A stretch of 64,000 nt of DNA, taken from NCBI GenBank assembly GCA_027627225.1, contig JAPFQT010000151.1, forward strand, positions 1 to 64,000, read 5' to 3'. The position numbers were made by a program, and so were the translations under genes. Source of the DNA: Congeria kusceri (Eukaryota > Mollusca > Bivalvia > Myida > Dreissenidae). Positions 1 to 54,169 of this stretch are shown here, in pieces; positions within the stretch are counted from its first letter, which is position 1, and every line of letters begins with the position of its first letter. Below the pieces are notes generated by a model, which was not told the origin of the DNA, ran no database searches, and saw only the letters and a list, made by a program, of their open reading frames with translations.

Positions 1-429
1 ACTTTGTTAGATATTTTTACTCTAAGCCATTTTGATAATGTATTTTTTGTGTATTTTTTTTAAAAATCACCCCAAAAATGTAAATTTAATAGAAAAAAAA
101 TTCCAATTTCATCCAAGACAATTAACAAATTAGTCAAAATGGGAGATCAAAGATACTTTGAAGTGTAGAAATCAATCAGCTTCCAGTAATTGCTTGTTTC
201 AAACCAATAAAGTGTAAAATCTTTAAAGCACCTTGCTTGTCGCAGCCTCTTTAATTACAGGCCACCAATTATATATTCTAGTATATAATGTCATGAGTGC
301 CTTTAAACTGCAGCAGGTGGTCAATTTGCATTGCCTGCTCACATTTAGAGGTTTAAGGGAATACAAAATTGCATATTTTGGGCACAAAATAAGTACTTTG
401 ACTTTTTTTAAGGTGGCAATCTGGTCAAA

Positions 430-2374
430 ATGGGGTTCATAACCAAGCAAAAGAAAAAGTTGCTCAATGTTGGTTTTAAACGAGGTGGGACTAGTCCGGT
501 GAAGGGGAAAAAACATAATTATGAAAGAAGGTCAAATTCCAACACAACCTATGTAAGGTTAGAAAGGTCATCCTTTGAAGCACGGGTAGCTTACAATGAC
601 AAGGTTCTTACTTTTCGGGATGTAGACGGCTCTCAAACCCCAGCTAAGCCCTTGCGTCCGAGAGCGAACAAGATTCGCTATGTAGACCTGTTACGGGTTC
701 CTGCTCCATCAAAAGTCCATCCCGACTTACTTACGAACAAGGTCTATGTCCCCGCCCTACTCCAGTCTATGATGTCCTCTGAAAATAGAAAGCATAGGTT
801 AAGAAGTGATAAATGTAGGGGCGACTTGGTAATTGACGGCAGTGCTTCCATAAAGTGGGGCTTAGGCTGGGAGGAAAGGTTAAAATGTACAAGATGCAGA
901 TATGTAGGCAAGCATTATAAGCTTTACAATGAGGTTCCATCAAGTACCAGGGGCAGAAAGGCAGCTCAGATCAATGTAGGCTTCCAAATAGGTGTTGCAA
1001 GTACTTCTACTGGGAACACAGGTTCCCGCAGAATTCTCAACACAACCAATATCATTGCTCCCTCTCCACTTGCTATGCAAAAACAAGCAAATAAGGTCAA
1101 TACTGCCCTTAAATCCCTAAATGAGAGAAGCATGTACCAGATTAGAGAAAACTTAGTTGCTGAAAATGCCAAAATTGGTCAAAAAGATCCCTCTAAGGTA
1201 AATGTTGAAGGGGACACTTGCTACAACAATCCAATTTTTAACTCTGACGCGACACCCTTTCAAGCCGGAACTATTGCCATAAGCACTATGTGTGAAAACA
1301 ATACCAGAAACAAGCAAATTGTAGGGGTACAAGTAGCAAATAAACTATGCAGGACTGCATCAATGCTTAGGAATAAGGGTAAACCTGTTCAGTGCCCCAA
1401 TCATAGGGGGCATTGTTCTGCAAATGTTTCAGAGAGGGAACCAATAGGTGATGAAGGCAAATGGAATAGGTTGTTAGGTGACCAGATCTCTAAGGACATC
1501 AAAATAGCAAATTTCACTTGTGATTGGGACAGTAGGGCATTCCAAGGTGTTCGTAACTCTCACGGTCACAATGTGGGTCATCTTAAGGGATCTGAGGCAC
1601 CTAGGCAACTCGCTGAAGCGCGAGCTCAACAAAGCGCCTTTCTCAAAGGGCATGCTCAAGGGTCATTCCAAGTCTAATATCAGGAGTCGGTTCGCTCTCT
1701 CGGTCAAAGCTAGGTGTATGGCTGAGCTTAAAGCTGCCCACAATAAACACCAGGGTGACATCAAGGTTCTAAAGAAGGTCATGGTTGATGTAATCGCAAC
1801 CATTGTTCTATGCTTCAGTGGTTACTGCGGTACTCATTGTGCAAAGTACAGTTATGTCTGTGCTGGTACAAATAGGCAAGCTAAGAATTTCATGCCAGAC
1901 AATGTCAAGGTTAAAATGGTTGACAGTGACAAATGCATTGAAATGGTTTTAGGTCCAGCTGCTCTTGACGCTACCAAACTTTTAACCACAACCCAAAAAA
2001 GTGAAGCAGTAAACAGGTCGTACCAAGCTGTCAATCCTAAAACTGTGACTTTCTCACGCAACTGTGTAGGTCGAATTCACGGGCAGGTTCACAAATTAAA
2101 CAATGGCTATGCTGACTCTGTAATTGCAAAAACCACTGAACTAAATGCTAACCTTACCCAGGGGTCAAAGATTATTAAGCAGATAGCATATGAGGACCGC
2201 AACGACCTTAACCGAAAGCAAACATCCGCTACCAACAAAGCACGAGCTTTACGTGCCAGGACGCGGAATTATCGATACAAACTGCATGAGGAATTACACT
2301 ACGGCAAGGGCATGAGTGACCCCAAACCTGATTATGACAGTCTTCCACACCTTAAGCATCATAAATATGCTTAG
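430..2374 (+). pseudogene. Mutator-like transposase, unit 1, one frameshift
   Basis: This is the unit 1 copy of the transposase described at 7991-9934. An extra G in the GGG run at 1587-1589 shifts the frame after codon 386, so it reads as a 415-codon frame followed by an overlapping frame to 2374. Everything else matches the intact copy. The change lies in a homopolymer, so a sequencing or assembly error is as likely as a real mutation. Confidence 0.85.
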
Positions 2375-2550
2375 TTGATTGTGTACCTGATAATAAATTG
2401 TTATTATTACCTGTTTTGGCATAAGAGACCTCTAACAAGTGGCCCTCGCGTCAGCATCAGGCGTTCCTCTACCTGAAAAAGGCAAAAATACCCAATAGAA
2501 ATAGATATAAAATGAAAAAAAACATGCATTTATGTATTTTAAGTGTATTT

Positions 2551-2982
2551 CTATGAATAAAAGGAAGTGATAAAGCTTGTTGTATTCATGTTTTTACCAA
2601 ATATGCAGGCTGGCTCAGTTCCATGCCCGCTGCACTGTCCGAACTGTAAACATGTCCGCCGTTCCATGTTGGTGGAATGGGGCTCTATGTTTAAATGTTC
2701 AGGCTTAACACACAAGCGATTGTTGCATAAGTGGCTCACAGAGTCCCTGGCGTTCAATTCTGACTTCATGTAGCACATTAACGCTACACGGTGAACCAAG
2801 TATGTCTCTGATTTTATGTCCGAAGGCAATTTAGCCCTCATTCGGCCATAATAGGGTAAGGAACTATTTGAAATACAACCATTCCAGATCAAACAATCTG
2901 AATAGATGCATTTAATGCACTTATTTTCTACTCTTTTGCTCAGAAATGACCAAAAATCTGCTTTCTCATCCATATTTTGCAC
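2551..2982 (-). CDS. His-Cys box (His-Me finger) endonuclease, unit 1
   Basis: A 143-residue endonuclease identical in sequence to the unit 3 copy, which is described at 10111-10542. It converges on the unit 1 transposase. Confidence 0.85.
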   Translation of the reverse strand: MQNMDEKADFWSFLSKRVENKCIKCIYSDCLIWNGCISNSSLPYYGRMRAKLPSDIKSETYLVHRVALMCYMKSELNARDSVSHLCNNRLCVKPEHLNIEPHSTNMERRTCLQFGQCSGHGTEPACIFGKNMNTTSFITSFYS

Positions 2983-3257
2983 TTGCAGACGATATTTTAT
3001 TTTAACCCAAAGTCAGTTTAGGTCACAATATACTAAAAGATTTCCTTAACAAATTCAATGTAAAAGCAATAAATTCAACAAAAAATAAACTCAACATTTT
3101 GCGCGTAGAGACCCTCATAACCATACCTTTTCTTAAACAGCATTCCGAGCCGAATTGATTTAGACAATAAAAAAGATAGGTCATGTGATATGTAAGAAAG
3201 AACTCGACGCGAATCAAAGTTCACTGTTTTACGGCCATCTTTTTACCGGCTACTCTC

Positions 3258-3281
3258 CAGTTGAAGGTATACTGCCAACTG
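3258..3281. other. 24-bp interrupted palindrome, unit 1
   Basis: CAGTTG-N3-GTATAC-N3-CAACTG, set within a wider inverted repeat whose 11-bp arms (TTCACTGTTTT / AAAACAGTGAA) lie at 3220-3230 and 3317-3327. It is in the divergent spacer between the start of the endonuclease and the next transposase. It could be two joined terminal inverted repeats, a nuclease target, or a regulatory site. Confidence 0.6.
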
Positions 3282-4209
3282 TCAAAGTCTCGTCATGTAG
3301 TCTCCAACCTTCAAGCAAAACAGTGAATTTTTAGTACACAACAATGTTTTTCCTACCACACGTACAAAGAAATATTCAAAAATAAAGTCATGGCAAGTGA
3401 CTATACAGAAAATTGTGTCTTCAAATAAATGGTGTTGATTTATTTAGAGAGTATAGCATTGCACACCTGAAATATTTAGTATACTGTAACCTATAAGAGA
3501 AATTTGTTCTCATTAAAATTAGTTTTTCTTGCATATAATTATCTTCCCATGCATATTGCACCAATATATTAAGTTTGGCTTGTATATCTGTCCATTTGGC
3601 CATTTTATTTCATATTTTCAAACACAGGTGATTTTGGTCGGAAGCCGGTGATTTCAAGCGTCTTGAAGCTTAAATGTCCCTCTAACAATTAAAGCTGATA
3701 TTTGCAATATTTGTGACAAAATACCCAAACAAACCAAACAAACATGTATGGGGGACTTATGTGGGGTGAGGAGAGAATGACTTTGTTAGATATTTTTACT
3801 CTAAGCCATTTTGATAATGTATTTTTTGTGTATTTTTTTTAAAAAATCACCCCAAAAATGTAAATTTAATAGAAAAAAAATTCCAATTTCATCCAAGACA
3901 ATTAACAAATTAGTCAAAATGGGAGATCAAAGATACTTTGAAGTGTAGAAATCAATCAGCTTCCAGTAATTGCTTGTTTCAAACCAATAAAGTGTAAAAT
4001 CTTTAAAGCACCTTGCTTGTCGCAGCCTCTTTAATTACAGGCCACCAATTATATATTCTAGTATATAATGTCATGAGTGCCTTTAAACTGCAGCAGGTGG
4101 TCAATTTGCATTGCCTGCTCACATTTAGAGGTTTAAGGGAATACAAAATTGCATATTTTGGGCACAAAATAAGTACTTTGACTTTTTTTAAGGTGGCAAT
4201 CTGGTCAAA

Positions 4210-6154
4210 ATGGGGTTCATAACCAAGCAAAAGAAAAAGTTGCTCAATGTTGGTTTTAAACGAGGTGGGACTAGTCCGGTGAAGGGGAAAAAACATAATT
4301 ATGAAAGAAGGTCAAATTCCAACACAACCTATGTAAGGTTAGAAAGGTCATCCTTTGAAGCACGGGTAGCTTACAATGACAAGGTTCTTACTTTTCGGGA
4401 TGTAGACGGCTCTCAAACCCCAGCTAAGCCCTTGCGTCCGAGAGCGAACAAGATTCGCTATGTAGACCTGTTACGGGTTCCTGCTCCATCAAAAGTCCAT
4501 CCCGACTTACTTACGAACAAGGTCTATGTCCCCGCCCCTACTCCAGTCTATGATGTCCTCTGAAAATAGAAAGCATAGGTTAAGAAGTGATAAATGTAGG
4601 GGCGACTTGGTAATTGACGGCAGTGCTTCCATAAAGTGGGGCTTAGGCTGGGAGGAAAGGTTAAAATGTACAAGATGCAGATATGTAGGCAAGCATTATA
4701 AGCTTTACAATGAGGTTCCATCAAGTACCAGGGGCAGAAAGGCAGCTCAGATCAATGTAGGCTTCCAAATAGGTGTTGCAAGTACTTCTACTGGGAACAC
4801 AGGTTCCCGCAGAATTCTCAACACAACCAATATCATTGCTCCCTCTCCACTTGCTATGCAAAAACAAGCAAATAAGGTCAATACTGCCCTTAAATCCCTA
4901 AATGAGAGAAGCATGTACCAGATTAGAGAAAACTTAGTTGCTGAAAATGCCAAAATTGGTCAAAAAGATCCCTCTAAGGTAAATGTTGAAGGGGACACTT
5001 GCTACAACAATCCAATTTTTAACTCTGACGCGACACCCTTTCAAGCCGGAACTATTGCCATAAGCACTATGTGTGAAAACAATACCAGAAACAAGCAAAT
5101 TGTAGGGGTACAAGTAGCAAATAAACTATGCAGGACTGCATCAATGCTTAGGAATAAGGGTAAACCTGTTCAGTGCCCCAATCATAGGGGGCATTGTTCT
5201 GCAAATGTTTCAGAGAGGGAACCAATAGGTGATGAAGGCAAATGGAATAGGTTGTTAGGTGACCAGATCTCTAAGGACATCAAAATAGCAAATTTCACTT
5301 GTGATTGGGACAGTAGGGCATTCCAAGGTGTTCGTAACTCTCACGGTCACAATGTGGGTCATCTTAAGGATCTGAGGCACCTAGGCAACTCGCTGAAGCG
5401 CGAGCTCAACAAAGCGCCTTTCTCAAAGGGCATGCTCAAGGGTCATTCCAAGTCTAATATCAGGAGTCGGTTCGCTCTCTCGGTCAAAGCTAGGTGTATG
5501 GCTGAGCTTAAAGCTGCCCACAATAAACACCAGGGTGACATCAAGGTTCTAAAGAAGGTCATGGTTGATGTAATCGCAACCATTGTTCTATGCTTCAGTG
5601 GTTACTGCGGTACTCATTGTGCAAAGTACAGTTATGTCTGTGCTGGTACAAATAGGCAAGCTAAGAATTTCATGCCAGACAATGTCAAGGTTAAAATGGT
5701 TGACAGTGACAAATGCATTGAAATGGTTTTAGGTCCAGCTGCTCTTGACGCTACCAAACTTTTAACCACAACCCAAAAAAGTGAAGCAGTAAACAGGTCG
5801 TACCAAGCTGTCAATCCTAAAACTGTGACTTTCTCACGCAACTGTGTAGGTCGAATTCACGGGCAGGTTCACAAATTAAACAATGGCTATGCTGACTCTG
5901 TAATTGCAAAAACCACTGAACTAAATGCTAACCTTACCCAGGGGTCAAAGATTATTAAGCAGATAGCATATGAGGACCGCAACGACCTTAACCGAAAGCA
6001 AACATCCGCTACCAACAAAGCACGAGCTTTACGTGCCAGGACGCGGAATTATCGATACAAACTGCATGAGGAATTACACTACGGCAAGGGCATGAGTGAC
6101 CCCAAACCTGATTATGACAGTCTTCCACACCTTAAGCATCATAAATATGCTTAG
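4210..6154 (+). pseudogene. Mutator-like transposase, unit 2, one frameshift
   Basis: The unit 2 copy of the transposase. An extra C at 4535-4538 (CCCC where the intact copy has CCC) ends the first frame after 117 codons. A 542-codon frame beginning at 4526 then carries the whole DDE core and the C-terminus. The break precedes every recognised catalytic residue. A homopolymer error is possible. Confidence 0.85.
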
Positions 6155-6330
6155 TTGATTGTGTACCTGATAATAAATTGTTATTATTACCTGTTTTGGC
6201 ATAAGAGACCTCTAACAAGTGGCCCTCGCGTCAGCATCAGGCGTTCCTCTACCTGAAAAAGGCAAAAATACCCAATAGAAATAGATATAAAATGAAAAAA
6301 AACATGCATTTATGTATTTTAAGTGTATTT

Positions 6331-6762
6331 CTATGAATAAAAGGAAGTGATAAAGCTTGTTGTATTCATGTTTTTACCAAATATGCAGGCTGGCTCAGTT
6401 CCATGCCCGCTGCACTGTCCGAACTGTAAACATGTCCGCCGTTCCATGTTGGTGGAATGGGGCTCTATGTTTAAATGTTCAGGCTTAACACACAAGCGAT
6501 TGTTGCATAAGTGGCTCACAGAGTCCCTGGCGTTCAATTCTGACTTCATGTAGCACATTAACGCTACACGGTGAACCAAGTATGTCTCTGATTTTATGTC
6601 CGAAGGCAATTTAGCCCTCATTCGGCCATAATAGGGTAAGGAACTATTTGAAATACAACCATTCCAGATCAAACAATCTGAATAGATGCATTTAATGCAC
6701 TTATTTTCTACTCTTTTGCTCAGAAATGACCAAAAATCTGCTTTCTCATCCATATTTTGCAC
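6331..6762 (-). CDS. His-Cys box endonuclease, unit 2
   Basis: An intact 143-residue copy, identical in protein sequence to units 1, 3 and 4. Confidence 0.85.
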   Translation of the reverse strand: MQNMDEKADFWSFLSKRVENKCIKCIYSDCLIWNGCISNSSLPYYGRMRAKLPSDIKSETYLVHRVALMCYMKSELNARDSVSHLCNNRLCVKPEHLNIEPHSTNMERRTCLQFGQCSGHGTEPACIFGKNMNTTSFITSFYS

Positions 6763-7037
6763 TTGCAGACGATATTTTATTTTAACCCAAAGTCAGTTTA
6801 GGTCACAATATACTAAAAGATTTCCTTAACAAATTCAATGTAAAAGCAATAAATTCAACAAAAAATAAACTCAACATTTTGCGCGTAGAGACCCTCATAA
6901 CCATACCTTTTCTTAAACAGCATTCCGAGCCGAATTGATTTAGACAATAAAAAAGATAGGTCATGTGATATGTAAGAAAGAACTCGACGCGAATCAAAGT
7001 TCACTGTTTTACGGCCATCTTTTTACCGGCTACTCTC

Positions 7038-7061
7038 CAGTTGAAGGTATACTGCCAACTG
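7038..7061. other. 24-bp interrupted palindrome, unit 2
   Basis: The same CAGTTG/GTATAC/CAACTG palindrome as in unit 1, unchanged. Confidence 0.6.
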
Positions 7062-7990
7062 TCAAAGTCTCGTCATGTAGTCTCCAACCTTCAAGCAAAA
7101 CAGTGAATTTTTAGTACACAACAATGTTTTTCCTACCACACGTACAAAGAAATATTCAAAAATAAAGTCATGGCAAGTGACTATACAGAAAATTGTGTCT
7201 TCAAATAAATGGTGTTTGATTTATTTAGAGAGTATAGCATTGCACACCTGAAATATTTAGTATACTGTAACCTATAAGAGAAATTTGTTCTCATTAAAAT
7301 TAGTTTTTCTTGCATATAATTATCTTCCCATGCATATTGCACCAATATATTAAGTTTGGCTTGTATATCTGTCCATTTGGCCATTTTATTTCATATTTTC
7401 AAACACAGGTGATTTTGGTCGGAAGCCGGTGATTTCAAGCGTCTTGAAGCTTAAATGTCCCTCTAACAATTAAAGCTGATATTTGCAATATTTGTGACAA
7501 AATACCCAAACAAACCAAACAAACATGTATGGGGGACTTATGTGGGGTGAGGAGAGAATGACTTTGTTAGATATTTTTACTCTAAGCCATTTTGATAATG
7601 TATTTTTTGTGTATTTTTTTTAAAAAATCACCCCAAAAATGTAAATTTAATAGAAAAAAAATTCCAATTTCATCCAAGACAATTAACAAATTAGTCAAAA
7701 TGGGAGATCAAAGATACTTTGAAGTGTAGAAATCAATCAGCTTCCAGTAATTGCTTGTTTCAAACCAATAAAGTGTAAAATCTTTAAAGCACCTTGCTTG
7801 TCGCAGCCTCTTTAATTACAGGCCACCAATTATATATTCTAGTATATAATGTCATGAGTGCCTTTAAACTGCAGCAGGTGGTCAATTTGCATTGCCTGCT
7901 CACATTTAGAGGTTTAAGGGAATACAAAATTGCATATTTTGGGCACAAAATAAGTACTTTGACTTTTTTTAAGGTGGCAATCTGGTCAAA

Positions 7991-9934
7991 ATGGGGTTCA
8001 TAACCAAGCAAAAGAAAAAGTTGCTCAATGTTGGTTTTAAACGAGGTGGGACTAGTCCGGTGAAGGGGAAAAAACATAATTATGAAAGAAGGTCAAATTC
8101 CAACACAACCTATGTAAGGTTAGAAAGGTCATCCTTTGAAGCACGGGTAGCTTACAATGACAAGGTTCTTACTTTTCGGGATGTAGACGGCTCTCAAACC
8201 CCAGCTAAGCCCTTGCGTCCGAGAGCGAACAAGATTCGCTATGTAGACCTGTTACGGGTTCCTGCTCCATCAAAAGTCCATCCCGACTTACTTACGAACA
8301 AGGTCTATGTCCCCGCCCTACTCCAGTCTATGATGTCCTCTGAAAATAGAAAGCATAGGTTAAGAAGTGATAAATGTAGGGGCGACTTGGTAATTGACGG
8401 CAGTGCTTCCATAAAGTGGGGCTTAGGCTGGGAGGAAAGGTTAAAATGTACAAGATGCAGATATGTAGGCAAGCATTATAAGCTTTACAATGAGGTTCCA
8501 TCAAGTACCAGGGGCAGAAAGGCAGCTCAGATCAATGTAGGCTTCCAAATAGGTGTTGCAAGTACTTCTACTGGGAACACAGGTTCCCGCAGAATTCTCA
8601 ACACAACCAATATCATTGCTCCCTCTCCACTTGCTATGCAAAAACAAGCAAATAAGGTCAATACTGCCCTTAAATCCCTAAATGAGAGAAGCATGTACCA
8701 GATTAGAGAAAACTTAGTTGCTGAAAATGCCAAAATTGGTCAAAAAGATCCCTCTAAGGTAAATGTTGAAGGGGACACTTGCTACAACAATCCAATTTTT
8801 AACTCTGACGCGACACCCTTTCAAGCCGGAACTATTGCCATAAGCACTATGTGTGAAAACAATACCAGAAACAAGCAAATTGTAGGGGTACAAGTAGCAA
8901 ATAAACTATGCAGGACTGCATCAATGCTTAGGAATAAGGGTAAACCTGTTCAGTGCCCCAATCATAGGGGGCATTGTTCTGCAAATGTTTCAGAGAGGGA
9001 ACCAATAGGTGATGAAGGCAAATGGAATAGGTTGTTAGGTGACCAGATCTCTAAGGACATCAAAATAGCAAATTTCACTTGTGATTGGGACAGTAGGGCA
9101 TTCCAAGGTGTTCGTAACTCTCACGGTCACAATGTGGGTCATCTTAAGGATCTGAGGCACCTAGGCAACTCGCTGAAGCGCGAGCTCAACAAAGCGCCTT
9201 TCTCAAAGGGCATGCTCAAGGGTCATTCCAAGTCTAATATCAGGAGTCGGTTCGCTCTCTCGGTCAAAGCTAGGTGTATGGCTGAGCTTAAAGCTGCCCA
9301 CAATAAACACCAGGGTGACATCAAGGTTCTAAAGAAGGTCATGGTTGATGTAATCGCAACCATTGTTCTATGCTTCAGTGGTTACTGCGGTACTCATTGT
9401 GCAAAGTACAGTTATGTCTGTGCTGGTACAAATAGGCAAGCTAAGAATTTCATGCCAGACAATGTCAAGGTTAAAATGGTTGACAGTGACAAATGCATTG
9501 AAATGGTTTTAGGTCCAGCTGCTCTTGACGCTACCAAACTTTTAACCACAACCCAAAAAAGTGAAGCAGTAAACAGGTCGTACCAAGCTGTCAATCCTAA
9601 AACTGTGACTTTCTCACGCAACTGTGTAGGTCGAATTCACGGGCAGGTTCACAAATTAAACAATGGCTATGCTGACTCTGTAATTGCAAAAACCACTGAA
9701 CTAAATGCTAACCTTACCCAGGGGTCAAAGATTATTAAGCAGATAGCATATGAGGACCGCAACGACCTTAACCGAAAGCAAACATCCGCTACCAACAAAG
9801 CACGAGCTTTACGTGCCAGGACGCGGAATTATCGATACAAACTGCATGAGGAATTACACTACGGCAAGGGCATGAGTGACCCCAAACCTGATTATGACAG
9901 TCTTCCACACCTTAAGCATCATAAATATGCTTAG
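7991..9934 (+). CDS. Mutator-like DDE transposase (intact, 647 aa)
   Basis: Probable DNA transposase acting on the ends of its own element in the nucleus. What is seen: a basic N-terminus; a CxxC pair at C153/C156; a block around residues 165-220 with the RGRKAA motif; an EGDTCYNN block with D262; a CDWDS block with D365 and D367; a cysteine cluster at C461, C466, C470 and C477; then EAVNRS (E525), NPKTVTFSRN and GRIHGQVH. A basic tail follows. From family knowledge, this order resembles the Mutator-like transposase domain (PF20700) common in mollusc genomes, in which the second block normally reads DGDS; D262, D365/D367 and E525 are my candidate catalytic acids. The start ATG sits in a good context (AAAATGG). 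An AATAAA lies 18 bp past the stop. The gene is convergent with the endonuclease. W366 replaces the usual G of the family motif, so activity is uncertain although the frame is open. Confidence 0.8.
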   Translation: MGFITKQKKKLLNVGFKRGGTSPVKGKKHNYERRSNSNTTYVRLERSSFEARVAYNDKVLTFRDVDGSQTPAKPLRPRANKIRYVDLLRVPAPSKVHPDLLTNKVYVPALLQSMMSSENRKHRLRSDKCRGDLVIDGSASIKWGLGWEERLKCTRCRYVGKHYKLYNEVPSSTRGRKAAQINVGFQIGVASTSTGNTGSRRILNTTNIIAPSPLAMQKQANKVNTALKSLNERSMYQIRENLVAENAKIGQKDPSKVNVEGDTCYNNPIFNSDATPFQAGTIAISTMCENNTRNKQIVGVQVANKLCRTASMLRNKGKPVQCPNHRGHCSANVSEREPIGDEGKWNRLLGDQISKDIKIANFTCDWDSRAFQGVRNSHGHNVGHLKDLRHLGNSLKRELNKAPFSKGMLKGHSKSNIRSRFALSVKARCMAELKAAHNKHQGDIKVLKKVMVDVIATIVLCFSGYCGTHCAKYSYVCAGTNRQAKNFMPDNVKVKMVDSDKCIEMVLGPAALDATKLLTTTQKSEAVNRSYQAVNPKTVTFSRNCVGRIHGQVHKLNNGYADSVIAKTTELNANLTQGSKIIKQIAYEDRNDLNRKQTSATNKARALRARTRNYRYKLHEELHYGKGMSDPKPDYDSLPHLKHHKYA

Positions 9935-9951
9935 TTGATTGTGTACCTGAT

Positions 9952-9957
9952 AATAAA
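9952..9957 (+). promoter_or_regulatory. Polyadenylation signal AATAAA of the transposase
   Basis: A canonical AATAAA 18 bp after the transposase stop in unit 3. It is present at the same place in every unit (for example 2392-2397 in unit 1) and lies within the 177-bp gap between the convergent genes. Confidence 0.5.
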
Positions 9958-10110
9958 TTGTTATTATTACCTGTTTTGGCATAAGAGACCTCTAACAAGT
10001 GGCCCTCGCGTCAGCATCAGGCGTTCCTCTACCTGAAAAAGGCAAAAATACCCAATAGAAATAGATATAAAATGAAAAAAAACATGCATTTATGTATTTT
10101 AAGTGTATTT

Positions 10111-10542
10111 CTATGAATAAAAGGAAGTGATAAAGCTTGTTGTATTCATGTTTTTACCAAATATGCAGGCTGGCTCAGTTCCATGCCCGCTGCACTGTCC
10201 GAACTGTAAACATGTCCGCCGTTCCATGTTGGTGGAATGGGGCTCTATGTTTAAATGTTCAGGCTTAACACACAAGCGATTGTTGCATAAGTGGCTCACA
10301 GAGTCCCTGGCGTTCAATTCTGACTTCATGTAGCACATTAACGCTACACGGTGAACCAAGTATGTCTCTGATTTTATGTCCGAAGGCAATTTAGCCCTCA
10401 TTCGGCCATAATAGGGTAAGGAACTATTTGAAATACAACCATTCCAGATCAAACAATCTGAATAGATGCATTTAATGCACTTATTTTCTACTCTTTTGCT
10501 CAGAAATGACCAAAAATCTGCTTTCTCATCCATATTTTGCAC
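10111..10542 (-). CDS. His-Cys box (I-PpoI-like) homing-type endonuclease
   Basis: Predicted zinc-bound His-Me finger nuclease that would make double-strand breaks in DNA. Seen: C30xxW33xG35, YGR (45-47), HR (64-65), then SHLCNNRLCVKPEHL at 83-97, N105, and C111, C117, H120, C126. From family knowledge, I-PpoI uses His98 and Asn119 for catalysis, binds one zinc with C41, C100, C105 and H110, and another with C125, C132, H134 and C138. Subtracting 14 maps H98, C100, C105, H110, N119, C125 and H134 exactly onto H84, C86, C91, H96, N105, C111 and H120. C117 and C126 are off by one and two residues, and C30 would stand for C41. At 143 residues it is close to I-PpoI (163). All expected residues are present, so activity is plausible. 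It lies opposite and convergent to the transposase, and its own target is unknown. PF05551 (zinc-binding loop of homing endonucleases) is the expected family. Confidence 0.85.
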   Translation of the reverse strand: MQNMDEKADFWSFLSKRVENKCIKCIYSDCLIWNGCISNSSLPYYGRMRAKLPSDIKSETYLVHRVALMCYMKSELNARDSVSHLCNNRLCVKPEHLNIEPHSTNMERRTCLQFGQCSGHGTEPACIFGKNMNTTSFITSFYS

Positions 10543-10817
10543 TTGCAGACGATATTTTATTTTAACCCAAAGTCAGTTTAGGTCACAATATACTAAAAGA
10601 TTTCCTTAACAAATTCAATGTAAAAGCAATAAATTCAACAAAAAATAAACTCAACATTTTGCGCGTAGAGACCCTCATAACCATACCTTTTCTTAAACAG
10701 CATTCCGAGCCGAATTGATTTAGACAATAAAAAAGATAGGTCATGTGATATGTAAGAAAGAACTCGACGCGAATCAAAGTTCACTGTTTTACGGCCATCT
10801 TTTTACCGGCTACTCTC

Positions 10818-10841
10818 CAGTTGAAGGTATACTGCCAACTG
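10818..10841. other. 24-bp interrupted palindrome, unit 3
   Basis: The same palindrome, unchanged. Confidence 0.6.
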
Positions 10842-11770: not shown

Positions 11771-13716
11771 ATGGGGTTCATAACCAAGCAAAAGAAAAAG
11801 TTGCTCAATGTTGGTTTTTAAACGAGGTGGGACTAGTCCGGTGAAGGGGAAAAAACATAATTATGAAAGAAGGTCAAATTCCAACACAACCTATGTAAGG
11901 TTAGAAAGGTCATCCTTTGAAGCACGGGTAGCTTACAATGACAAGGTTCTTACTTTTCGGGATGTAGACGGCTCTCAAACCCCAGCTAAGCCCTTGCGTC
12001 CGAGAGCGAACAAGATTCGCTATGTAGACCTGTTACGGGTTCCTGCTCCATCAAAAGTCCATCCCGACTTACTTACGAACAAGGTCTATGTCCCCGCCCT
12101 ACTCCAGTCTATGATGTCCTCTGAAAATAGAAAGCATAGGTTAAGAAGTGATAAATGTAGGGGCGACTTGGTAATTGACGGCAGTGCTTCCATAAAGTGG
12201 GGCTTAGGCTGGGAGGAAAGGTTAAAATGTACAAGATGCAGATATGTAGGCAAGCATTATAAGCTTTACAATGAGGTTCCATCAAGTACCAGGGGCAGAA
12301 AGGCAGCTCAGATCAATGTAGGCTTCCAAATAGGTGTTGCAAGTACTTCTACTGGGAACACAGGTTCCCGCAGAATTCTCAACACAACCAATATCATTGC
12401 TCCCTCTCCACTTGCTATGCAAAAACAAGCAAATAAGGTCAATACTGCCCTTAAATCCCTAAATGAGAGAAGCATGTACCAGATTAGAGAAAACTTAGTT
12501 GCTGAAAATGCCAAAATTGGTCAAAAAGATCCCTCTAAGGTAAATGTTGAAGGGGGACACTTGCTACAACAATCCAATTTTTAACTCTGACGCGACACCC
12601 TTTCAAGCCGGAACTATTGCCATAAGCACTATGTGTGAAAACAATACCAGAAACAAGCAAATTGTAGGGGTACAAGTAGCAAATAAACTATGCAGGACTG
12701 CATCAATGCTTAGGAATAAGGGTAAACCTGTTCAGTGCCCCAATCATAGGGGGCATTGTTCTGCAAATGTTTCAGAGAGGGAACCAATAGGTGATGAAGG
12801 CAAATGGAATAGGTTGTTAGGTGACCAGATCTCTAAGGACATCAAAATAGCAAATTTCACTTGTGATTGGGACAGTAGGGCATTCCAAGGTGTTCGTAAC
12901 TCTCACGGTCACAATGTGGGTCATCTTAAGGATCTGAGGCACCTAGGCAACTCGCTGAAGCGCGAGCTCAACAAAGCGCCTTTCTCAAAGGGCATGCTCA
13001 AGGGTCATTCCAAGTCTAATATCAGGAGTCGGTTCGCTCTCTCGGTCAAAGCTAGGTGTATGGCTGAGCTTAAAGCTGCCCACAATAAACACCAGGGTGA
13101 CATCAAGGTTCTAAAGAAGGTCATGGTTGATGTAATCGCAACCATTGTTCTATGCTTCAGTGGTTACTGCGGTACTCATTGTGCAAAGTACAGTTATGTC
13201 TGTGCTGGTACAAATAGGCAAGCTAAGAATTTCATGCCAGACAATGTCAAGGTTAAAATGGTTGACAGTGACAAATGCATTGAAATGGTTTTAGGTCCAG
13301 CTGCTCTTGACGCTACCAAACTTTTAACCACAACCCAAAAAAGTGAAGCAGTAAACAGGTCGTACCAAGCTGTCAATCCTAAAACTGTGACTTTCTCACG
13401 CAACTGTGTAGGTCGAATTCACGGGCAGGTTCACAAATTAAACAATGGCTATGCTGACTCTGTAATTGCAAAAACCACTGAACTAAATGCTAACCTTACC
13501 CAGGGGTCAAAGATTATTAAGCAGATAGCATATGAGGACCGCAACGACCTTAACCGAAAGCAAACATCCGCTACCAACAAAGCACGAGCTTTACGTGCCA
13601 GGACGCGGAATTATCGATACAAACTGCATGAGGAATTACACTACGGCAAGGGCATGAGTGACCCCAAACCTGATTATGACAGTCTTCCACACCTTAAGCA
13701 TCATAAATATGCTTAG
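11771..13716 (+). pseudogene. Mutator-like transposase, unit 4, two frameshifts
   Basis: The unit 4 copy of the transposase. It has an extra T in the run at 11815-11819, just after codon 15, and an extra G in the run at 12552-12556, just before the first catalytic Asp block. The longest open pieces are 258 and 390 codons. Both changes lie in homopolymers. Confidence 0.85.
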
Positions 13717-13892
13717 TTGATTGTGTACCTGATAATAAATTGTTATTATTACCTGTTTTGGCATAAGAGACCTCTAACAAGTGGCCCTCGCGTCAGCATC
13801 AGGCGTTCCTCTACCTGAAAAAGGCAAAAATACCCAATAGAAATAGATATAAAATGAAAAAAAACATGCATTTATGTATTTTAAGTGTATTT

Positions 13893-14324
13893 CTATGAAT
13901 AAAAGGAAGTGATAAAGCTTGTTGTATTCATGTTTTTACCAAATATGCAGGCTGGCTCAGTTCCATGCCCGCTGCACTGTCCGAACTGTAAACATGTCCG
14001 CCGTTCCATGTTGGTGGAATGGGGCTCTATGTTTAAATGTTCAGGCTTAACACACAAGCGATTGTTGCATAAGTGGCTCACAGAGTCCCTGGCGTTCAAT
14101 TCTGACTTCATGTAGCACATTAACGCTACACGGTGAACCAAGTATGTCTCTGATTTTATGTCCGAAGGCAATTTAGCCCTCATTCGGCCATAATAGGGTA
14201 AGGAACTATTTGAAATACAACCATTCCAGATCAAACAATCTGAATAGATGCATTTAATGCACTTATTTTCTACTCTTTTGCTCAGAAATGACCAAAAATC
14301 TGCTTTCTCATCCATATTTTGCAC
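13893..14324 (-). CDS. His-Cys box endonuclease, unit 4
   Basis: An intact 143-residue copy, identical in protein sequence to units 1-3, although the neighbouring transposase has two frameshifts. Confidence 0.85.
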   Translation of the reverse strand: MQNMDEKADFWSFLSKRVENKCIKCIYSDCLIWNGCISNSSLPYYGRMRAKLPSDIKSETYLVHRVALMCYMKSELNARDSVSHLCNNRLCVKPEHLNIEPHSTNMERRTCLQFGQCSGHGTEPACIFGKNMNTTSFITSFYS

Positions 14325-14599
14325 TTGCAGACGATATTTTATTTTAACCCAAAGTCAGTTTAGGTCACAATATACTAAAAGATTTCCTTAACAAATTCAA
14401 TGTAAAAGCAATAAATTCAACAAAAAATAAACTCAACATTTTGCGCGTAGAGACCCTCATAACCATACCTTTTCTTAAACAGCATTCCGAGCCGAATTGA
14501 TTTAGACAATAAAAAAGATAGGTCATGTGATATGTAAGAAAGAACTCGACGCGAATCAAAGTTCACTGTTTTACGGCCATCTTTTTACCGGCTACTCTC

Positions 14600-14623
14600 C
14601 AGTTGAAGGTATACTGCCAACTG
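14600..14623. other. 24-bp interrupted palindrome, unit 4
   Basis: The same palindrome, unchanged. Confidence 0.6.
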
Positions 14624-15551
14624 TCAAAGTCTCGTCATGTAGTCTCCAACCTTCAAGCAAAACAGTGAATTTTTAGTACACAACAATGTTTTTCCTACCA
14701 CACGTACAAAGAAATATTCAAAAATAAAGTCATGGCAAGTGACTATACAGAAAATTGTGTCTTCAAATAAATGGTGTTGATTTATTTAGAGAGTATAGCA
14801 TTGCACACCTGAAATATTTAGTATACTGTAACCTATAAGAGAAATTTGTTCTCATTAAAATTAGTTTTTCTTGCATATAATTATCTTCCCATGCATATTG
14901 CACCAATATATTAAGTTTGGCTTGTATATCTGTCCATTTGGCCATTTTATTTCATATTTTCAAACACAGGTGATTTTGGTCGGAAGCCGGTGATTTCAAG
15001 CGTCTTGAAGCTTAAATGTCCCTCTAACAATTAAAGCTGATATTTGCAATATTTGTGACAAAATACCCAAACAAACCAAACAAACATGTATGGGGGACTT
15101 ATGTGGGGTGAGGAGAGAATGACTTTGTTAGATATTTTTACTCTAAGCCATTTTGATAATGTATTTTTTGTGTATTTTTTTTAAAAAATCACCCCAAAAA
15201 TGTAAATTTAATAGAAAAAAAATTCCAATTTCATCCAAGACAATTAACAAATTAGTCAAAATGGGAGATCAAAGATACTTTGAAGTGTAGAAATCAATCA
15301 GCTTCCAGTAATTGCTTGTTTCAAACCAATAAAGTGTAAAATCTTTAAAGCACCTTGCTTGTCGCAGCCTCTTTAATTACAGGCCACCAATTATATATTC
15401 TAGTATATAATGTCATGAGTGCCTTTAAACTGCAGCAGGTGGTCAATTTGCATTGCCTGCTCACATTTAGAGGTTTAAGGGAATACAAAATTGCATATTT
15501 TGGGCACAAAATAAGTACTTTGACTTTTTTTAAGGTGGCAATCTGGTCAAA

Positions 15552-17521
15552 ATGGGGTTCATAACCAAGCAAAAGAAAAAGTTGCTCAATGTTGGGCTCA
15601 ATGTTGGTTTTAAACGAGGTGGGACTAGTCCAGTGAAGGGGAAAAAACATAATTATGAAAGAAGGTCAAATTCCAACACAACCTATGTAAGGTTAGAAAG
15701 GTCATCCTTTGAAGCACGGGTAGCTTACAATGACAAGGTTCTTACTTTTCGGGATGTAGACGGCTCTCAAACCCCAGCTAAGCCCTTGCGTCCGAGAGCG
15801 AACAAGATTCGCTATGTAGACCTGTTACGGGTTCCTGCTCCATCAAAAGTCCATCCCGACTTACTTACGAACAAGGTCTATGTCCCGCCCTACTCCAGTC
15901 TATGATGTCCTCTGAAAATAGAAAGCATAGGTTAAGAAGTGATAAATGTAGGGGCGACTTGGTAATTGACGGCAGTGCTTCCATAAAGTGGGGCTTAGGC
16001 TGGGAGGAAAGGTTAAAATGTACAAGATGCAGATATGTAGGCAAGCATTATAAGCTTTACAATGAGGTTCCATCAAGTACCAGGGGCAGAAAGGCAGCTC
16101 AGATCAATGTAGGCTTCCAAATAGGTGTTGCGAGTACTTCTATTGGGAACACAGGTTCCCGCAGAATTCTCAACACAACCAATATCATTGCTCCCTCTCC
16201 ACTTGCTATGCAAAAACAAGCAAATAAGGTCAATACTGCCCTTAAATCCCTAAATGAGAGAAGCATGTACCAGATTAGAGAAAACTTAGTTGCTGAAAAT
16301 GCCAAAATTGGTCAAAAAGATCCCTCTAAGGTAAATGTTGAAGGGGACACTTGCTACAACAATCCAATTTTTAACTCTGACGCGACACCCTTTCAAGCCG
16401 GAACTATTGCCATAAGCACTATGTGTGAAAACAATACCAGAAACAAGCAAATTGTAGGGGTACAAGTAGCAAATAAACTATGCAGGACTGCATCAATGCT
16501 TAGGAATAAGGGTAAACCTGTTCAGTGCCCCAATCATAGGGGGCATTGTTCTGCAAATGTTTCAGAGAGGGAACCAATAGGTGATGAAGGCAAATGGAAT
16601 AGGTTGTTAGGTGACCAGATCTCTAAGGACATCAAAATAGCAAATTTCACTTGTGATGGGGACAGTAGGGCATTCCAAGGTGTTCGTAACTCTCACGGTC
16701 ACAATGTGGGTCATCTTAAGGATCTGAGGCACCTAGGCAACTCGCTGAAGCGCGAGCTCAACAAAGCGCCTTTCTCAAAGGGCATGCTCAAGGGTCATTC
16801 CAAGTCTAATATCAGGAGTCGGTTCGCTCTCTCGGTCAAAGCTAGGTGTATGGCTGAGCTTAAAGCTGCCCACAATAAACACCAGGGTGACATCAAGGTT
16901 CTAAAGAAGGTCATGGTTGATGTAATCGCAACCATTGTTCTATGCTTCAGTGGTTACTGCGGTACTCATTGTGCAAAGTACAGTTATGTCTGTGCTGGTA
17001 CAAATAGGCAAGCTAAGAATTTCATGCCAGACAATGTCAAGGTTAAAATGGTTGACAGTGACCAACAAGTCCTTAAAAAATGCATTGAAATGGTTTTAGG
17101 TCCAGCTGCTCTTGACGCTACCAAACTTTTAACCACAACCCAAAAAAGTGAAGCAGTAAACAGGTCGTACCAAGCTGTCAATCCTAAAACTGTGACTTTC
17201 TCACGCAACTGTGTAGGTCGAATTCACGGGCAGGTTCACAAATTAAACAATGGCTATGCTGACTCTGTAATTGCAAAAACCACTGAACTAAATGCTAACC
17301 TTACCCAGGGGTCAAAGATTATTAAGCAGATAGCATATGAGGACCGCAACGACCTTAACCGAAAGCAAACATCCGCTACCAACAAAGCACGAGCTTTACG
17401 TGCCAGGACGCGGAATTATCGATACAAACTGCATGAGGAATTACACTACGGCAAGGGCATGAGTGACCCCAAACCTGATTATGACAGTCTTCCACACCTT
17501 AAGCATCATAAATATGCTTAG
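15552..17521 (+). pseudogene. Mutator-like transposase, unit 5, B-lineage frameshift
   Basis: One C is missing in TGTCCCGCCC at 15881-15890, ending the first frame after 117 codons. The second frame (539 codons) starts at the ATG at 15902, which overlaps the first stop as ATGA, so a two-protein arrangement is conceivable. The second part contains the CxxC pair and the whole catalytic core. It reads CDGDS at the second Asp block, closer to the family than the CDWDS of units 1-4. It also has five extra residues (QQVLK) before the CIEM motif, and a 4-residue LNVG duplication near the N-terminus. Confidence 0.8.
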
Positions 17522-17697
17522 TTGATTGTGTACCTGATAATAAATTGTTATTATTACCTGTTTTGGCATAAGAGACCTCTAACAAGTGGCCCTCGCGTCA
17601 GCATCAGGCGTTCCTCTACCTGAAAAAGGCAAAAATAGCCAATAGAAATAGATATAAAATGAAAAAAAACATGCATTTATGTATTTTAAGTGTATTT

Positions 17698-18129
17698 CTA
17701 TGAATAAAAGGAAGTGATAAAGCTTGTTGTACTCATGTTTTTACCAAATATGCAGGCTGGCTCAGTTCCATGCCCGCTGCACTGTCCGAACTGTAAACAT
17801 GTCCGCCGTTCCATGTTGGTGGAATGGGGCTCTATGTTTAAATGTTCAGGCTTAACACACAAGCTATTGTTGCATAAGTGGCTCACAGAGTCCCTGGCGT
17901 TCAATTCTGACTTCATGTAGCACATTAACGCTACACGGTGAACCAAGTATGTCTCTGATTTTATGTCCGAAGGCAATTTAGCCCTCATTCGGCCATAATA
18001 GGGTAAGGAACTATTTGAAATACAACCATTCCAGATCAAACAATCTGAATTGATGCATTTAATGCACTTATTTTCTACTCTTTTGCTCAGAAATGACCAA
18101 AAATCTGCTTTCTCATCCATATTTTGCAC
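17698..18129 (-). CDS. His-Cys box endonuclease, unit 5 (B variant)
   Basis: An intact 143-residue copy with three substitutions against the A lineage: Y27N, R89S and N133S. R89S falls inside the zinc loop between C86 and C91 but touches no metal ligand or catalytic residue. Confidence 0.85.
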   Translation of the reverse strand: MQNMDEKADFWSFLSKRVENKCIKCINSDCLIWNGCISNSSLPYYGRMRAKLPSDIKSETYLVHRVALMCYMKSELNARDSVSHLCNNSLCVKPEHLNIEPHSTNMERRTCLQFGQCSGHGTEPACIFGKNMSTTSFITSFYS

Positions 18130-18404
18130 TTGCAGACGATATTTTATTTTAACCCAAAGTCAGTTTAGGTCACAATATACTAAAAGATTTCCTTAACAAA
18201 TTCAATGTAAAAGCAATAAATTCAACAAAAAATAAACTCAACATTTTGCGCGTAGAGACCCTCATAACCATACCTTTTCTTAAAGAGCATTCCGAGCCGA
18301 ATTGATTTAGACAATAAAAAAGATAGGTCATGTGATATGTAAGAAAGAACTCGACGCGAATCAAAGTTCACTGTTTTACGGCCATCTTTTTACCGGCTAC
18401 TCTC

Positions 18405-18428
18405 CAGTTGAAGGTATACTGCCAACTG
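18405..18428. other. 24-bp interrupted palindrome, unit 5
   Basis: The palindrome is unchanged in the B lineage, while the outer right arm has an A-to-G change that shortens it to 10 bp. Confidence 0.6.
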
Positions 18429-19356
18429 TCAAAGTCTCGTCATGTAGTCTCCAACCTTCAAGCGAAACAGTGAATTTTTAGTACACAACAATGTTTTTCC
18501 TACCACACGTACAAAGAAATATTCAAAAATAAAGTCATGGCAAGTGACTATACAGAAAATTGTGTCTTCAAATAAATGGTGTTGATTTATTTAGAGAGTA
18601 TAGCATTGCACACCTGAAATATTTAATATACTGTAACCTATAAGAGAAATTTGTTCTCATTAAAATTAGTTTTTCTTGCATATAATTATCTTCCCATGCA
18701 TATTGCACCAATATATTAAGTTTGGCTTGTATATCTGTCCATTTGGCCATTTTATTTCATATTTTCAAACACAGGTGATTTTGGTCGGAAGCCGGTGATT
18801 TCAAGCGTCTTGAAGCTTAAATGTCCCTCTAACAATTAAAGCTGATATTTGCAATATTTGTGACAAAATACCCAAACAAACCAAACAAACATGTATGGGG
18901 GGCTTATGTGGGGTGAGGAGAGAATGACTTTGTTAGATATTTTTACTCTAAGCCATTTTGATAATGTATTTTTTGTGTATTTTAAAAAAAAAATCACCCC
19001 AAAAATGTAAATTTAATAGAAAAAAAATTCCAATTTCATCCAATACAATTAACAAATTAGTCAAAATGGGAGATCAAAGATACTTTGAAGTGTAGAAATC
19101 AATCAGCTTCCAGTAATTGCTTGTTTCAAACCAATAAAGTGTAAAATCTTTAAAGCACCTTGTTTGTCGCAGCCTCTTTAATTACAGGCCACCAATTATA
19201 TATTCTAGTATATAACGTCATGAGTGCCTTTAAACTGCAGCAGGTGGTCAATTTGCATTGCCTGCTCACATTTAGAGGTTTAAGGGAATACAAAATTGCA
19301 TATTTTGGGCACAAAATAAGTACTTTGACTTTTTTTAAGGTGGCAATCTGGTCAAA

Positions 19357-21314
19357 ATGGGGTTCATAACCAAGCAAAAGAAAAAGTTGCTCAATGTTGG
19401 TTTTAAACGAGGTGGGACTAGTCCAGTGAAGGGGAAAAAACATAATTATGAAAGAAGGTCAAATTCCAACACAACCTATGTAAGGTTAGAAAGGTCATCC
19501 TTTGAAGCACGGGTAGCTTACAATGACAAGGTTCTTACTTTTCGGGATGTAGACGGCTCTCAAACCCCAGCTAAGCCCTTGCGTCCGAGAGCGAACAAGA
19601 TTCGCTATGTAGACCTGTTACGGGTTCCTGCTCCATCAAAAGTCCATCCCGACTTACTTACGAACAAGGTCTATGTCCCGCCCTACTCCAGTCTATGATG
19701 TCCTCTGAAAATAGAAAGCATAGGTTAAGAAGTGATAAATGTAGGGGCGACTTGGTAATTGACGGCAGTGCTTCCATAAAGTGGGGCTTAGGCTGGGAGG
19801 AAAGGTTAAAATGTACAAGATGCAGATATGTAGGCAAGCATTATAAGCTTTACAATGAGGTTCCATCAAGTACCAGGGGCAGAAAGGCAGCTCAGATCAA
19901 TGTAGGCTTCCAAATAGGTGTTGCGAGTACTTCTATTGGGAACACAGGTTCCCGCAGAATTCTCAACACAACCAATATCATTGCTCCCTCTCCACTTGCT
20001 ATGCAAAAACAAGCAAATAAGGTCAATACTGCCCTTAAATCCCTAAATGAGAGAAGCATGTACCAGATTAGAGAAAACTTAGTTGCTGAAAATGCCAAAA
20101 TTGGTCAAAAAGATCCCTCTAAGGTAAATGTTGAAGGGGACACTTGCTACAACAATCCAATTTTTAACTCTGACGCGACACCCTTTCAAGCCGGAACTAT
20201 TGCCATAAGCACTATGTGTGAAAACAATACCAGAAACAAGCAAATTGTAGGGGTACAAGTAGCAAATAAACTATGCAGGACTGCATCAATGCTTAGGAAT
20301 AAGGGTAAACCTGTTCAGTGCCCCAATCATAGGGGGCATTGTTCTGCAAATGTTTCAGAGAGGGAACCAATAGGTGATGAAGGCAAATGGAATAGGTTGT
20401 TAGGTGACCAGATCTCTAAGGACATCAAAATAGCAAATTTCACTTGTGATGGGGACAGTAGGGCATTCCAAGGTGTTCGTAACTCTCACGGTCACAATGT
20501 GGGTCATCTTAAGGATCTGAGGCACCTAGGCAACTCGCTGAAGCGCGAGCTCAACAAAGCGCCTTTCTCAAAGGGCATGCTCAAGGGTCATTCCAAGTCT
20601 AATATCAGGAGTCGGTTCGCTCTCTCGGTCAAAGCTAGGTGTATGGCTGAGCTTAAAGCTGCCCACAATAAACACCAGGGTGACATCAAGGTTCTAAAGA
20701 AGGTCATGGTTGATGTAATCGCAACCATTGTTCTATGCTTCAGTGGTTACTGCGGTACTCATTGTGCAAAGTACAGTTATGTCTGTGCTGGTACAAATAG
20801 GCAAGCTAAGAATTTCATGCCAGACAATGTCAAGGTTAAAATGGTTGACAGTGACCAACAAGTCCTTAAAAAATGCATTGAAATGGTTTTAGGTCCAGCT
20901 GCTCTTGACGCTACCAAACTTTTAACCACAACCCAAAAAAGTGAAGCAGTAAACAGGTCGTACCAAGCTGTCAATCCTAAAACTGTGACTTTCTCACGCA
21001 ACTGTGTAGGTCGAATTCACGGGCAGGTTCACAAATTAAACAATGGCTATGCTGACTCTGTAATTGCAAAAACCACTGAACTAAATGCTAACCTTACCCA
21101 GGGGTCAAAGATTATTAAGCAGATAGCATATGAGGACCGCAACGACCTTAACCGAAAGCAAACATCCGCTACCAACAAAGCACGAGCTTTACGTGCCAGG
21201 ACGCGGAATTATCGATACAAACTGCATGAGGAATTACACTACGGCAAGGGCATGAGTGACCCCAAACCTGATTATGACAGTCTTCCACACCTTAAGCATC
21301 ATAAATATGCTTAG
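19357..21314 (+). pseudogene. Mutator-like transposase, unit 6, B-lineage frameshift
   Basis: The same missing C as unit 5 (at 19676-19683) splits it into a 113-codon N-terminal frame and a 539-codon frame from 19695, overlapping as ATGA. Sharing by two copies argues for inheritance rather than a random sequencing error. It has CDGDS at the second Asp block and the 15-bp insertion of the B lineage, but no LNVG duplication. Confidence 0.8.
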
Positions 21315-21490
21315 TTGATTGTGTACCTGATAATAAATTGTTATTATTACCTGTTTTGGCATAAGAGACCTCTAACAAGTGGCCCTCGCGTCAGCATCAG
21401 GCGTTCCTCTACCTGAAAAAGGCAAAAATAGCCAATAGAAATAGATATAAAATGAAAAAAAACATGCATTTATGTATTTTAAGTGTATTT

Positions 21491-21922
21491 CTATGAATAA
21501 AAGGAAGTGATAAAGCTTGTTGTACTCATGTTTTTACCAAATATGCAGGCTGGCTCAGTTCCATGCCCGCTGCACTGTCCGAACTGTAAACATGTCCGCC
21601 GTTCCATGTTGGTGGAATGGGGCTCTATGTTTAAATGTTCAGGCTTAACACACAAGCTATTGTTGCATAAGTGGCTCACAGAGTCCCTGGCGTTCAATTC
21701 TGACTTCATGTAGCACATTAACGCTACACGGTGAACCAAGTATGTCTCTGATTTTATGTCCGAAGGCAATTTAGCCCTCATTCGGCCATAATAGGGTAAG
21801 GAACTATTTGAAATACAACCATTCCAGATCAAACAATCTGAATTGATGCATTTAATGCACTTATTTTCTACTCTTTTGCTCAGAAATGACCAAAAATCTG
21901 CTTTCTCATCCATATTTTGCAC
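21491..21922 (-). CDS. His-Cys box endonuclease, unit 6 (B variant)
   Basis: An intact 143-residue copy identical to unit 5, complete although the unit is truncated about 500 bp further right. Confidence 0.85.
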   Translation of the reverse strand: MQNMDEKADFWSFLSKRVENKCIKCINSDCLIWNGCISNSSLPYYGRMRAKLPSDIKSETYLVHRVALMCYMKSELNARDSVSHLCNNSLCVKPEHLNIEPHSTNMERRTCLQFGQCSGHGTEPACIFGKNMSTTSFITSFYS

Positions 21923-22197
21923 TTGCAGACGATATTTTATTTTAACCCAAAGTCAGTTTAGGTCACAATATACTAAAAGATTTCCTTAACAAATTCAATG
22001 TAAAAGCAATAAATTCAACAAAAAATAAACTCAACATTTTGCGCGTAGAGACCCTCATAACCATACCTTTTCTTAAAGAGCATTCCGAGCCGAATTGATT
22101 TAGACAATAAAAAAGATAGGTCATGTGATATGTAAGAAAGAACTCGACGCGAATCAAAGTTCACTGTTTTACGGCCATCTTTTTACCGGCTACTCTC

Positions 22198-22221
22198 CAG
22201 TTGAAGGTATACTGCCAACTG
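22198..22221. other. 24-bp interrupted palindrome, unit 6
   Basis: The same as unit 5. The array ends 212 bp beyond this site. Confidence 0.6.
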
Positions 22222-22433
22222 TCAAAGTCTCGTCATGTAGTCTCCAACCTTCAAGCGAAACAGTGAATTTTTAGTACACAACAATGTTTTTCCTACCACA
22301 CGTACAAAGAAATATTCAAAAATAAAGTCATGGCAAGTGACTATACAGAAAATTGTGTCTTCAAATAAATGGTGTTGATTTATTTAGAGAGTATAGCATT
22401 GCACACCTGAAATATTTAGTATACTGTAACCTA

Positions 22434-30834: not shown

Positions 30835-30845
30835 TTCCTTTTTTG

Positions 30846-54053: not shown

Positions 54054-54169
54054 CTGAAAAACAAAACGACAGTATATATATTAAAGCACAAATAGATGAA
54101 ATTAAATTTATATTCAGACAAGATGACAATTCTTATTTCAAAGCATGTACGATGGGAATGTCATATATA

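Follow-up and report, generated by a model that had tools for sequence, protein, structure and literature searches.

The stretch of DNA analysed here (the window) comprises bases 1-64000 of contig JAPFQT010000151.1, called C151, of the bivalve Congeria kusceri (GCA_027627225.1; 1.549 Gb, 1,071 contigs). Positions without a contig prefix refer to the window, and C followed by a number designates a contig of the same genome. In a self-alignment of the window, direct repeats with 98.9-99.6% identity and a spacing of 3780-3805 bp were found to cover positions 1-22433. As judged from its sequence, this array is a multimer of the DNA transposon KolobokP, (LTDR-INT)n-LTDR, in which internal parts (INTs) are linked via long terminal direct repeats (LTDRs); both the element and the array are of a kind described before, here in an extreme and informative state. 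Between positions 1 and 22432 one partial and five complete INTs (3,306-3,332 bp, n=5) are linked via six LTDRs, each 473 bp long except for the second copy with 474 bp. The right end at 22432 is formed by a 473-bp block bounded by a 19-nt inverted repeat (21959-21977 and 22415-22433, arms 89% complementary). This block recurs between all units of the window, and neighbouring INTs have one LTDR in common. An earlier reading made without database searches (the sequence-only reading) had described five complete units and one truncated unit of about 3.78 kb, joined head to tail without spacers. The head-to-tail array was confirmed by self-comparison; however, what repeats are INTs with a single LTDR between any two of them, and since the window starts at base 1 of C151, where the array runs off the contig, the first unit owes its truncation to the contig edge.

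In every complete INT, a transposase region on the + strand is paired with a nuclease of 140 aa on the - strand. In Pfam, the 647-aa frame at 7991-9934 (+) matched PF20700 (1.6e-40) and the frame at 21491-21922 (-) matched PF05551 (1.2e-10), which bears out the proposal of a PF20700-type transposase and a convergent I-PpoI-like nuclease in each unit. When the window transposase was aligned with 13 of 35 database matches, residues D262, C307/C322/H325/C329, D365/D367, D387xRH, C461/C466/C470/C477 and E525 were invariant in all 14 sequences; catalytic roles of particular residues are putative and follow, by analogy, the description of KolobokP (Kojima & Bao 2022, Mob DNA 13:24, PMC9587614; cited throughout from part of its text). 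The nearest named match of the transposase was DPMN_176061 of Dreissena polymorpha (87% identity over 100% of the query). For the nuclease the highest match was an unnamed protein with 79% identity, and the nearest named one was D. polymorpha DPMN_054156 (72% identity over 94% of the query); the two Dreissena proteins are separate database matches and were compared as proteins only. Residues S83, H84, H96, E100 and N105 of the nuclease were invariant in 3/3 aligned sequences and match S97, H98, H110, E114 and N119 of I-PpoI at a constant offset (I-PpoI numbering as in PMC9587614). A single-sequence search of the PDB with E values up to 1 gave no match to I-PpoI; its sole hit, a DNA primase chain (E 0.64), was judged to be due to chance. 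An AlphaFold2 model of the nuclease, built from 3 sequences only, had a mean predicted local distance difference test score (pLDDT) of 32. The best match in the unit to a conserved I-PpoI-like target (11/15) was equalled in 168 of 300 shuffles and is therefore at chance level, and the target core TTAAGGTNGC, present in 15/300 shuffles, is not claimed as a site.

In the window, all INTs and LTDRs lie on the + strand. Unit 1 is the partial INT cut by the start of C151 (1-3019), followed by LTDR 1 (3020-3492), and unit 2 (3493-6799) is followed by LTDR 2 (6800-7273, 474 bp). Unit 3 (7274-10579) contains the KolobokP-type transposase frame with the Pfam match and precedes LTDR 3 (10580-11052). Units 2 and 4 (the latter at 11053-14361) each have a broken transposase frame and an open nuclease frame, in unit 4 at 13893-14315 (-, 140 aa from ATG). 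LTDR 4 (14362-14834) leads to unit 5 (14835-18166), which has a frameshifted transposase and a nuclease at 17698-18120 (-, 140 aa from ATG). After LTDR 5 (18167-18639, variants 298G and 460A) follows unit 6 (18640-21959), again with a frameshifted transposase; its nuclease, the one with the PF05551 match, reads 140 aa from ATG at 21491-21913 (-). LTDR 6 (21960-22432), with the 19-nt inverted repeat at its ends, closes the array.

The sequence-only reading knew of no named animal element with this gene pair, but KolobokP has exactly that pair. In the published account KolobokP, with 228 published families, has LTDRs of ~450 or ~660 bp with short terminal inverted repeats (TIRs) and between them an INT that encodes a DDD/E transposase and, on the opposite strand, an I-PpoI-like His-Me nuclease; TTAA-like duplications, multimers of the form (LTDR-INT)n-LTDR and INT-INT junctions missing a few bases are also reported (PMC9587614). 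Our assignment was made on this description of features. The Congeria element has LTDRs of 473 bp at both ends in 9/9 fetched single-site copies, and the LTDR has TIRs of its own (the 19-nt arms) with ends GG...CC that fit 5'-RR...YY-3'. It further shows a short TTAA-like target-site duplication, a DDE transposase with C/DxxH, a CCHC finger after the first D and a second finger before the E, and the PF05551 nuclease downstream on the opposite strand. A literature search under the KolobokP name gave nothing beyond Kojima & Bao (2022); it was made without preprints and with few subscription papers, so that a later array report is possible.

To find further copies, the window's own genome was searched with a 1,629-base query from the transposase region, and 40 of 67 candidates were scored. 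Single copies as well as arrays were found. Single dispersed copies and their ends, which the sequence-only reading had proposed to look for, were recovered in all nine fetched cases as LTDR (473) - INT (3306) - LTDR (473), 4,252 bp in length and with both genes. Neither of the findings that would have spoken against a genuine two-gene array was made: the genome holds many units and not a single one, and dispersed copies with only one of the two genes were absent among the nine, each of which has both genes between two LTDRs. Flanks were compared at 17 sites with both outer ends read, and 8 sites with one end in reach were set aside. At 12 of the 17 the flanks were equal over 4 bp outside the GG...CC core (TTTA 4, TTAA 3, TATA 2, TTGA 1, TGTA 1, ATAA 1), and two of the 17 had longer direct repeats, namely a dimer with TATAA/TATAA (5 bp) and one monomer with 7 bp. 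Among these sites, matching flanks stood at three of the four multimers with both ends read: a C1 multimer of eight INTs (ATAA/ATAA), a dimer with TGTA/TGTA and the TATAA/TATAA dimer. Hence LTDR-INT-LTDR inserts with a short TTAA-like duplication, and multimers exist at single insertion sites. As a separate observation, TATAA, the start of the INT, stood directly outside the right LTDR at 4/17 insertions (L014, L015, the C12 dimer L018/L019 and the C2 trimer L022/L023), two of them without a matching duplication. A donor multimer may have left this trace, but TATA is itself a likely target.

Sixteen chromosomal INTs, drawn from the best-scoring matches to the window query and all of one subtype, differed from the majority sequence at 0-3 positions in 3.3 kb (16/16), by which sequence measure this subtype is young. 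The two LTDRs were identical in 9/9 monomers, one of which carried a private variant in both. Similarly, a private variant was present in all three LTDRs of a C4 dimer; by contrast, two of three LTDRs in the C12 dimer each had a variant of their own. Identical LTDR pairs would be expected of monomers cut from a homogenised array.

Genome-wide, the first 26 bases of the LTDR occurred 2,493 times (<=1 mismatch; reversed control 0) and the INT|LTDR junction 1,902 times (<=1 mismatch). The difference leaves ~591 LTDR starts without a preceding INT, from which the number of insertions can be roughly estimated. An exact marker of 31 bases in the transposase gene, in its in-frame form, occurred 2,012 times, a lower bound for INTs. 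Altogether the genome holds some 2,000 INTs at around 590 sites. The first 100 marker INTs listed (C1 and part of C2) fell into 42 clusters. Of these, 34 were single and 8 were multimers, with 66 INTs in total and 23 in the largest one (C1:15461272-15538603). Some of the INTs counted as single may belong to multimers whose neighbours lack the exact marker, and a run of five LTDRs at C1:75.13M indeed had no exact-marker match. On C1, 28 LTDR starts had no INT on the left. By spacing and flanks, one of these is a true solo LTDR and two form an abutted LTDR pair (L059, C1:101822485-101823414), in which the two LTDRs directly adjoin without an INT and TTTA stands on each side. Standing single in the pattern list was not enough for an LTDR match to count as solo, since the flanks showed 5/6 of the single matches on C1 to be joined to an INT. 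Compared with Table 2 of Kojima & Bao (2022), the order of solo LTDRs and multimers looks reversed, at least on C1.

In the window array, a full-length transposase frame with the DGD motif was present in none of the six units, whereas the 140-aa nuclease frame was open in 6/6. Units 1-4 share a G-to-T change that places W between two invariant D (DWD), where 13/13 aligned relatives have G; unit 3 has an open frame of 647 aa, which likewise reads DWD, with W366, instead of DGD. An exact 29-base pattern for DWD had 19 matches in the whole genome (C935 9, C310 5, C151 4, C797 1). A frameshift of one base near codon 110 is common to units 5 and 6; this form had 41 exact matches (C813 12, C76 11, C912 10, C486 3, C151 2, and C2, C3 and C750 1 each), compared with 2,012 for the in-frame form. 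Thirty-eight of the 41 lie in the array contigs C76, C151, C486, C813 and C912, and the copy on C2 adjoins a multimer. The 16 chromosomal INTs, which come from single sites or short multimers, by contrast all encode the 647-aa transposase with DGD (16/16), with a nuclease of 140 aa in 15 and 139 aa in one. In the array contigs C310, C549, C705 and C935 the 647-aa DGD frame was found in 0/9 INTs checked; their nuclease has 140 aa in eight and, in one that lies close to the end of its contig, 119 aa. The four INTs from C549 and C705 have in common an insertion of four bases in their transposase gene. The LTDR variant 119C is shared by window LTDRs 1, 3 and 4 and the equal-length LTDRs of C310 and C935, in a comparison restricted to equal lengths, which left out window LTDR 2 and one LTDR in L026. 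Unit 5 is a mosaic of two subtypes with the switch between INT alignment columns 584 and 805 and a 12-bp duplication at column 769, and unit 6 belongs to the second subtype. On this sequence evidence the DWD and frameshift alleles are best read as probably without transposase activity, multiplied locally and hardly dispersed. Two further array structures were noted: L029 (C549:36501-40500) is an array end in which INT position 3003 is fused to LTDR position 306 in a deletion-like manner, and at C10:2304949-2312847 four nuclease genes at 2,490-bp spacing form an array of shortened, nuclease-keeping units.

Arrays without LTDRs at their junctions were also detected. One form of INT-INT junction had at least 184 occurrences (<=1 mismatch), and at C8:14129568-14156126 nine successive junctions join 10 abutted INTs. 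Footprints were counted with the LTDR core as GG...CC; six of seven fetched stretches held a junction and L068 held none. Four bases were lost on the left at C1:15.46M and C1:15.51M, which belong to one array and lie 46 kb apart, and also at C1:52.0M; at C1:95.1M four were lost on the right, at C1:112.9M three on the left and at C2:50.5M five on the right. In the C1:15.46M array, INT-INT runs are interspersed with INT-LTDR-INT runs. The spacings of INT-INT arrays were 3279-3280, 3288, 3318-3322 and 2922-2924. The simplest account of a repeated footprint is one LTDR excision, after which the junction was copied along the array. Array-linked alleles and LTDR-excision footprints thus both recur along an array.

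Since units with a broken transposase and blocks without LTDRs multiply, neither a transposase of the unit's own nor an LTDR at every junction appears to be required, and the array data suggest growth without the unit's own transposase in cis. We consider it probable that these KolobokP multimers grow in place by misaligned copying of neighbours, needing neither. A single LTDR-INT-LTDR would insert once, and the array would then expand in place by misaligned copying between adjacent units, either through unequal exchange or through sister-chromatid break repair. Units with a broken transposase would take part in this copying, and blocks that lost their LTDR would expand as well. The initiating break may come from the His-Cys nuclease, whose frame is open in the array units, in that case not solely by cuts inside the LTDR. 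Several points weigh against this reading. A matching duplication was missing at 3/17 sites (L014, the C2 trimer and the solo LTDR at C1:91.33M), and the footprint at C1:15.46M is not unique to its locus, as it also occurs at C1:52.0M. That the transposase lost its activity is deduced from conservation, and intact copies could provide the enzyme in trans. Small contigs hold most of the DWD and frameshift copies; these contigs may derive from one or two loci, in which case the alleles would represent few independent events. The 16 intact INTs are the best-scoring ones and of one subtype, and the commoner C1 subtype (spacing ~3794) was checked by the in-frame marker only. Private single-base indels near contig ends (window units 1, 2 and 4, and others) may be sequence errors. 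Finally, youth by itself would leave the nuclease frames of arrays open, and in these young arrays such frames do not discriminate between models.

How the copying is started can be envisaged in different ways. Passive unequal exchange between direct repeats, with neither protein involved, comes close to an even chance in our estimate. Any direct repeats can expand in this manner, transposase-broken alleles do expand, and each INT-INT array has its own unit length; the rarity of solo LTDRs on C1 is not explained by passive exchange alone, although a young family and chance could account for it. This same rarity (one solo LTDR in 28 C1 starts and one LTDR-LTDR pair), solo LTDRs being the reciprocal product of simple unequal crossover, speaks for a process in which the His-Cys nuclease cuts the unit and repair off a misaligned neighbour adds units. 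Kojima & Bao (2022, Fig. 5c) already put forward nuclease-induced unequal crossover as a speculation for KolobokP multimers, which is here extended to cuts outside the LTDR. The contrast in the window between open nuclease frames and missing DGD transposases points in the same direction, as do 150/150 stop-free nuclease matches, many of them in arrays; these were the best 150 of 5,013 candidates and hence biased to intact frames. Against it, the I-PpoI-like site in the unit was no better than chance (168/300 shuffles). We regard growth driven by the nuclease as rather unlikely.

Circular LTDR-INT intermediates that reinsert into resident LTDRs (the translocatable-unit route) would be compatible with two subtypes in the window array joined in unit 5, and with the INT start just outside the right LTDR at four of the 17 insertions. 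However, the subtype switch lies inside the INT and not in the LTDR, and the addition of LTDR-INT circles would not make LTDR-less INT-INT runs with one footprint, which renders this route improbable. That the arrays arose in assembly from collapsed or repeated reads could be suspected because C151 begins inside the array and private 1-bp indels occur near contig ends. Multimers within chromosome-size contigs, some with both flanks read, and the existence of array-linked alleles speak against assembly error as the array source, and we give it practically no credence.

A satellite being born from a transposon, as suggested by the sequence-only reading, was graded a reasonable reading. In its specific form, a protein-coding satellite in the making would arise as transposase-less units and LTDR-less blocks multiply while the nuclease cuts the unit outside the LTDR and misaligned repair adds copies; we hold this to be rather doubtful, a shade more so than nuclease-driven growth as such. 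If it is true, tandem growth would be a second, transposition-independent way of life for a DNA transposon, and if the nuclease drives growth, a homing-type nuclease would have turned into an engine of tandem amplification on a route from transposon to satellite. The gene pair, the multimers and the idea of nuclease-induced unequal crossover were already known from the KolobokP paper. This genome adds a young family whose sites are estimated at several hundred and whose alleles are marked, on which the competing growth models make differing, testable predictions.

The rest of the window contains three minisatellites: a 40-bp unit in about 17 copies (30831-31515), a 21-bp unit in about 21 copies (32238-32683) and a 33-bp unit in about 21 copies with 97% matches (42508-43205), the latter two open in a reading frame. 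Frames at 23242-25260 (+) resemble what we take to be a decayed transposon, one of them with an NCGLFA motif presumably as in Ulp1-type proteases, and frames at 51730-54121 (-) resemble what we assume to be pieces of a coiled-coil/NHL-repeat (TRIM-like) protein.

In comparison with known systems, I-PpoI and other His-Cys box homing endonucleases sit in a group I intron, whereas the window nuclease is carried by a DNA transposon. As in the published KolobokP, the Congeria element has the order LTDR-INT-LTDR, an LTDR of the ~450-bp class, in this case 473 bp long, with TIRs of its own and RR/YY ends, a transposase on the direct strand and a His-Me finger nuclease on the other, short TTAA-like duplications, multimers, and INT-INT junctions with few bases lost. 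It differs from the account given in the cited part of that paper (PMC9587614) in the size of its arrays, with up to 23 INTs at a single site and up to 10 abutted INTs in a run; LTDR-(INT)4-LTDR is the longest such run named there. It also differs in the rarity of solo LTDRs on C1, since in Table 2 of the paper, which counts only insertions with duplications, solo LTDRs mostly outnumber multimers, and in that its arrays are built of transposase-broken alleles.

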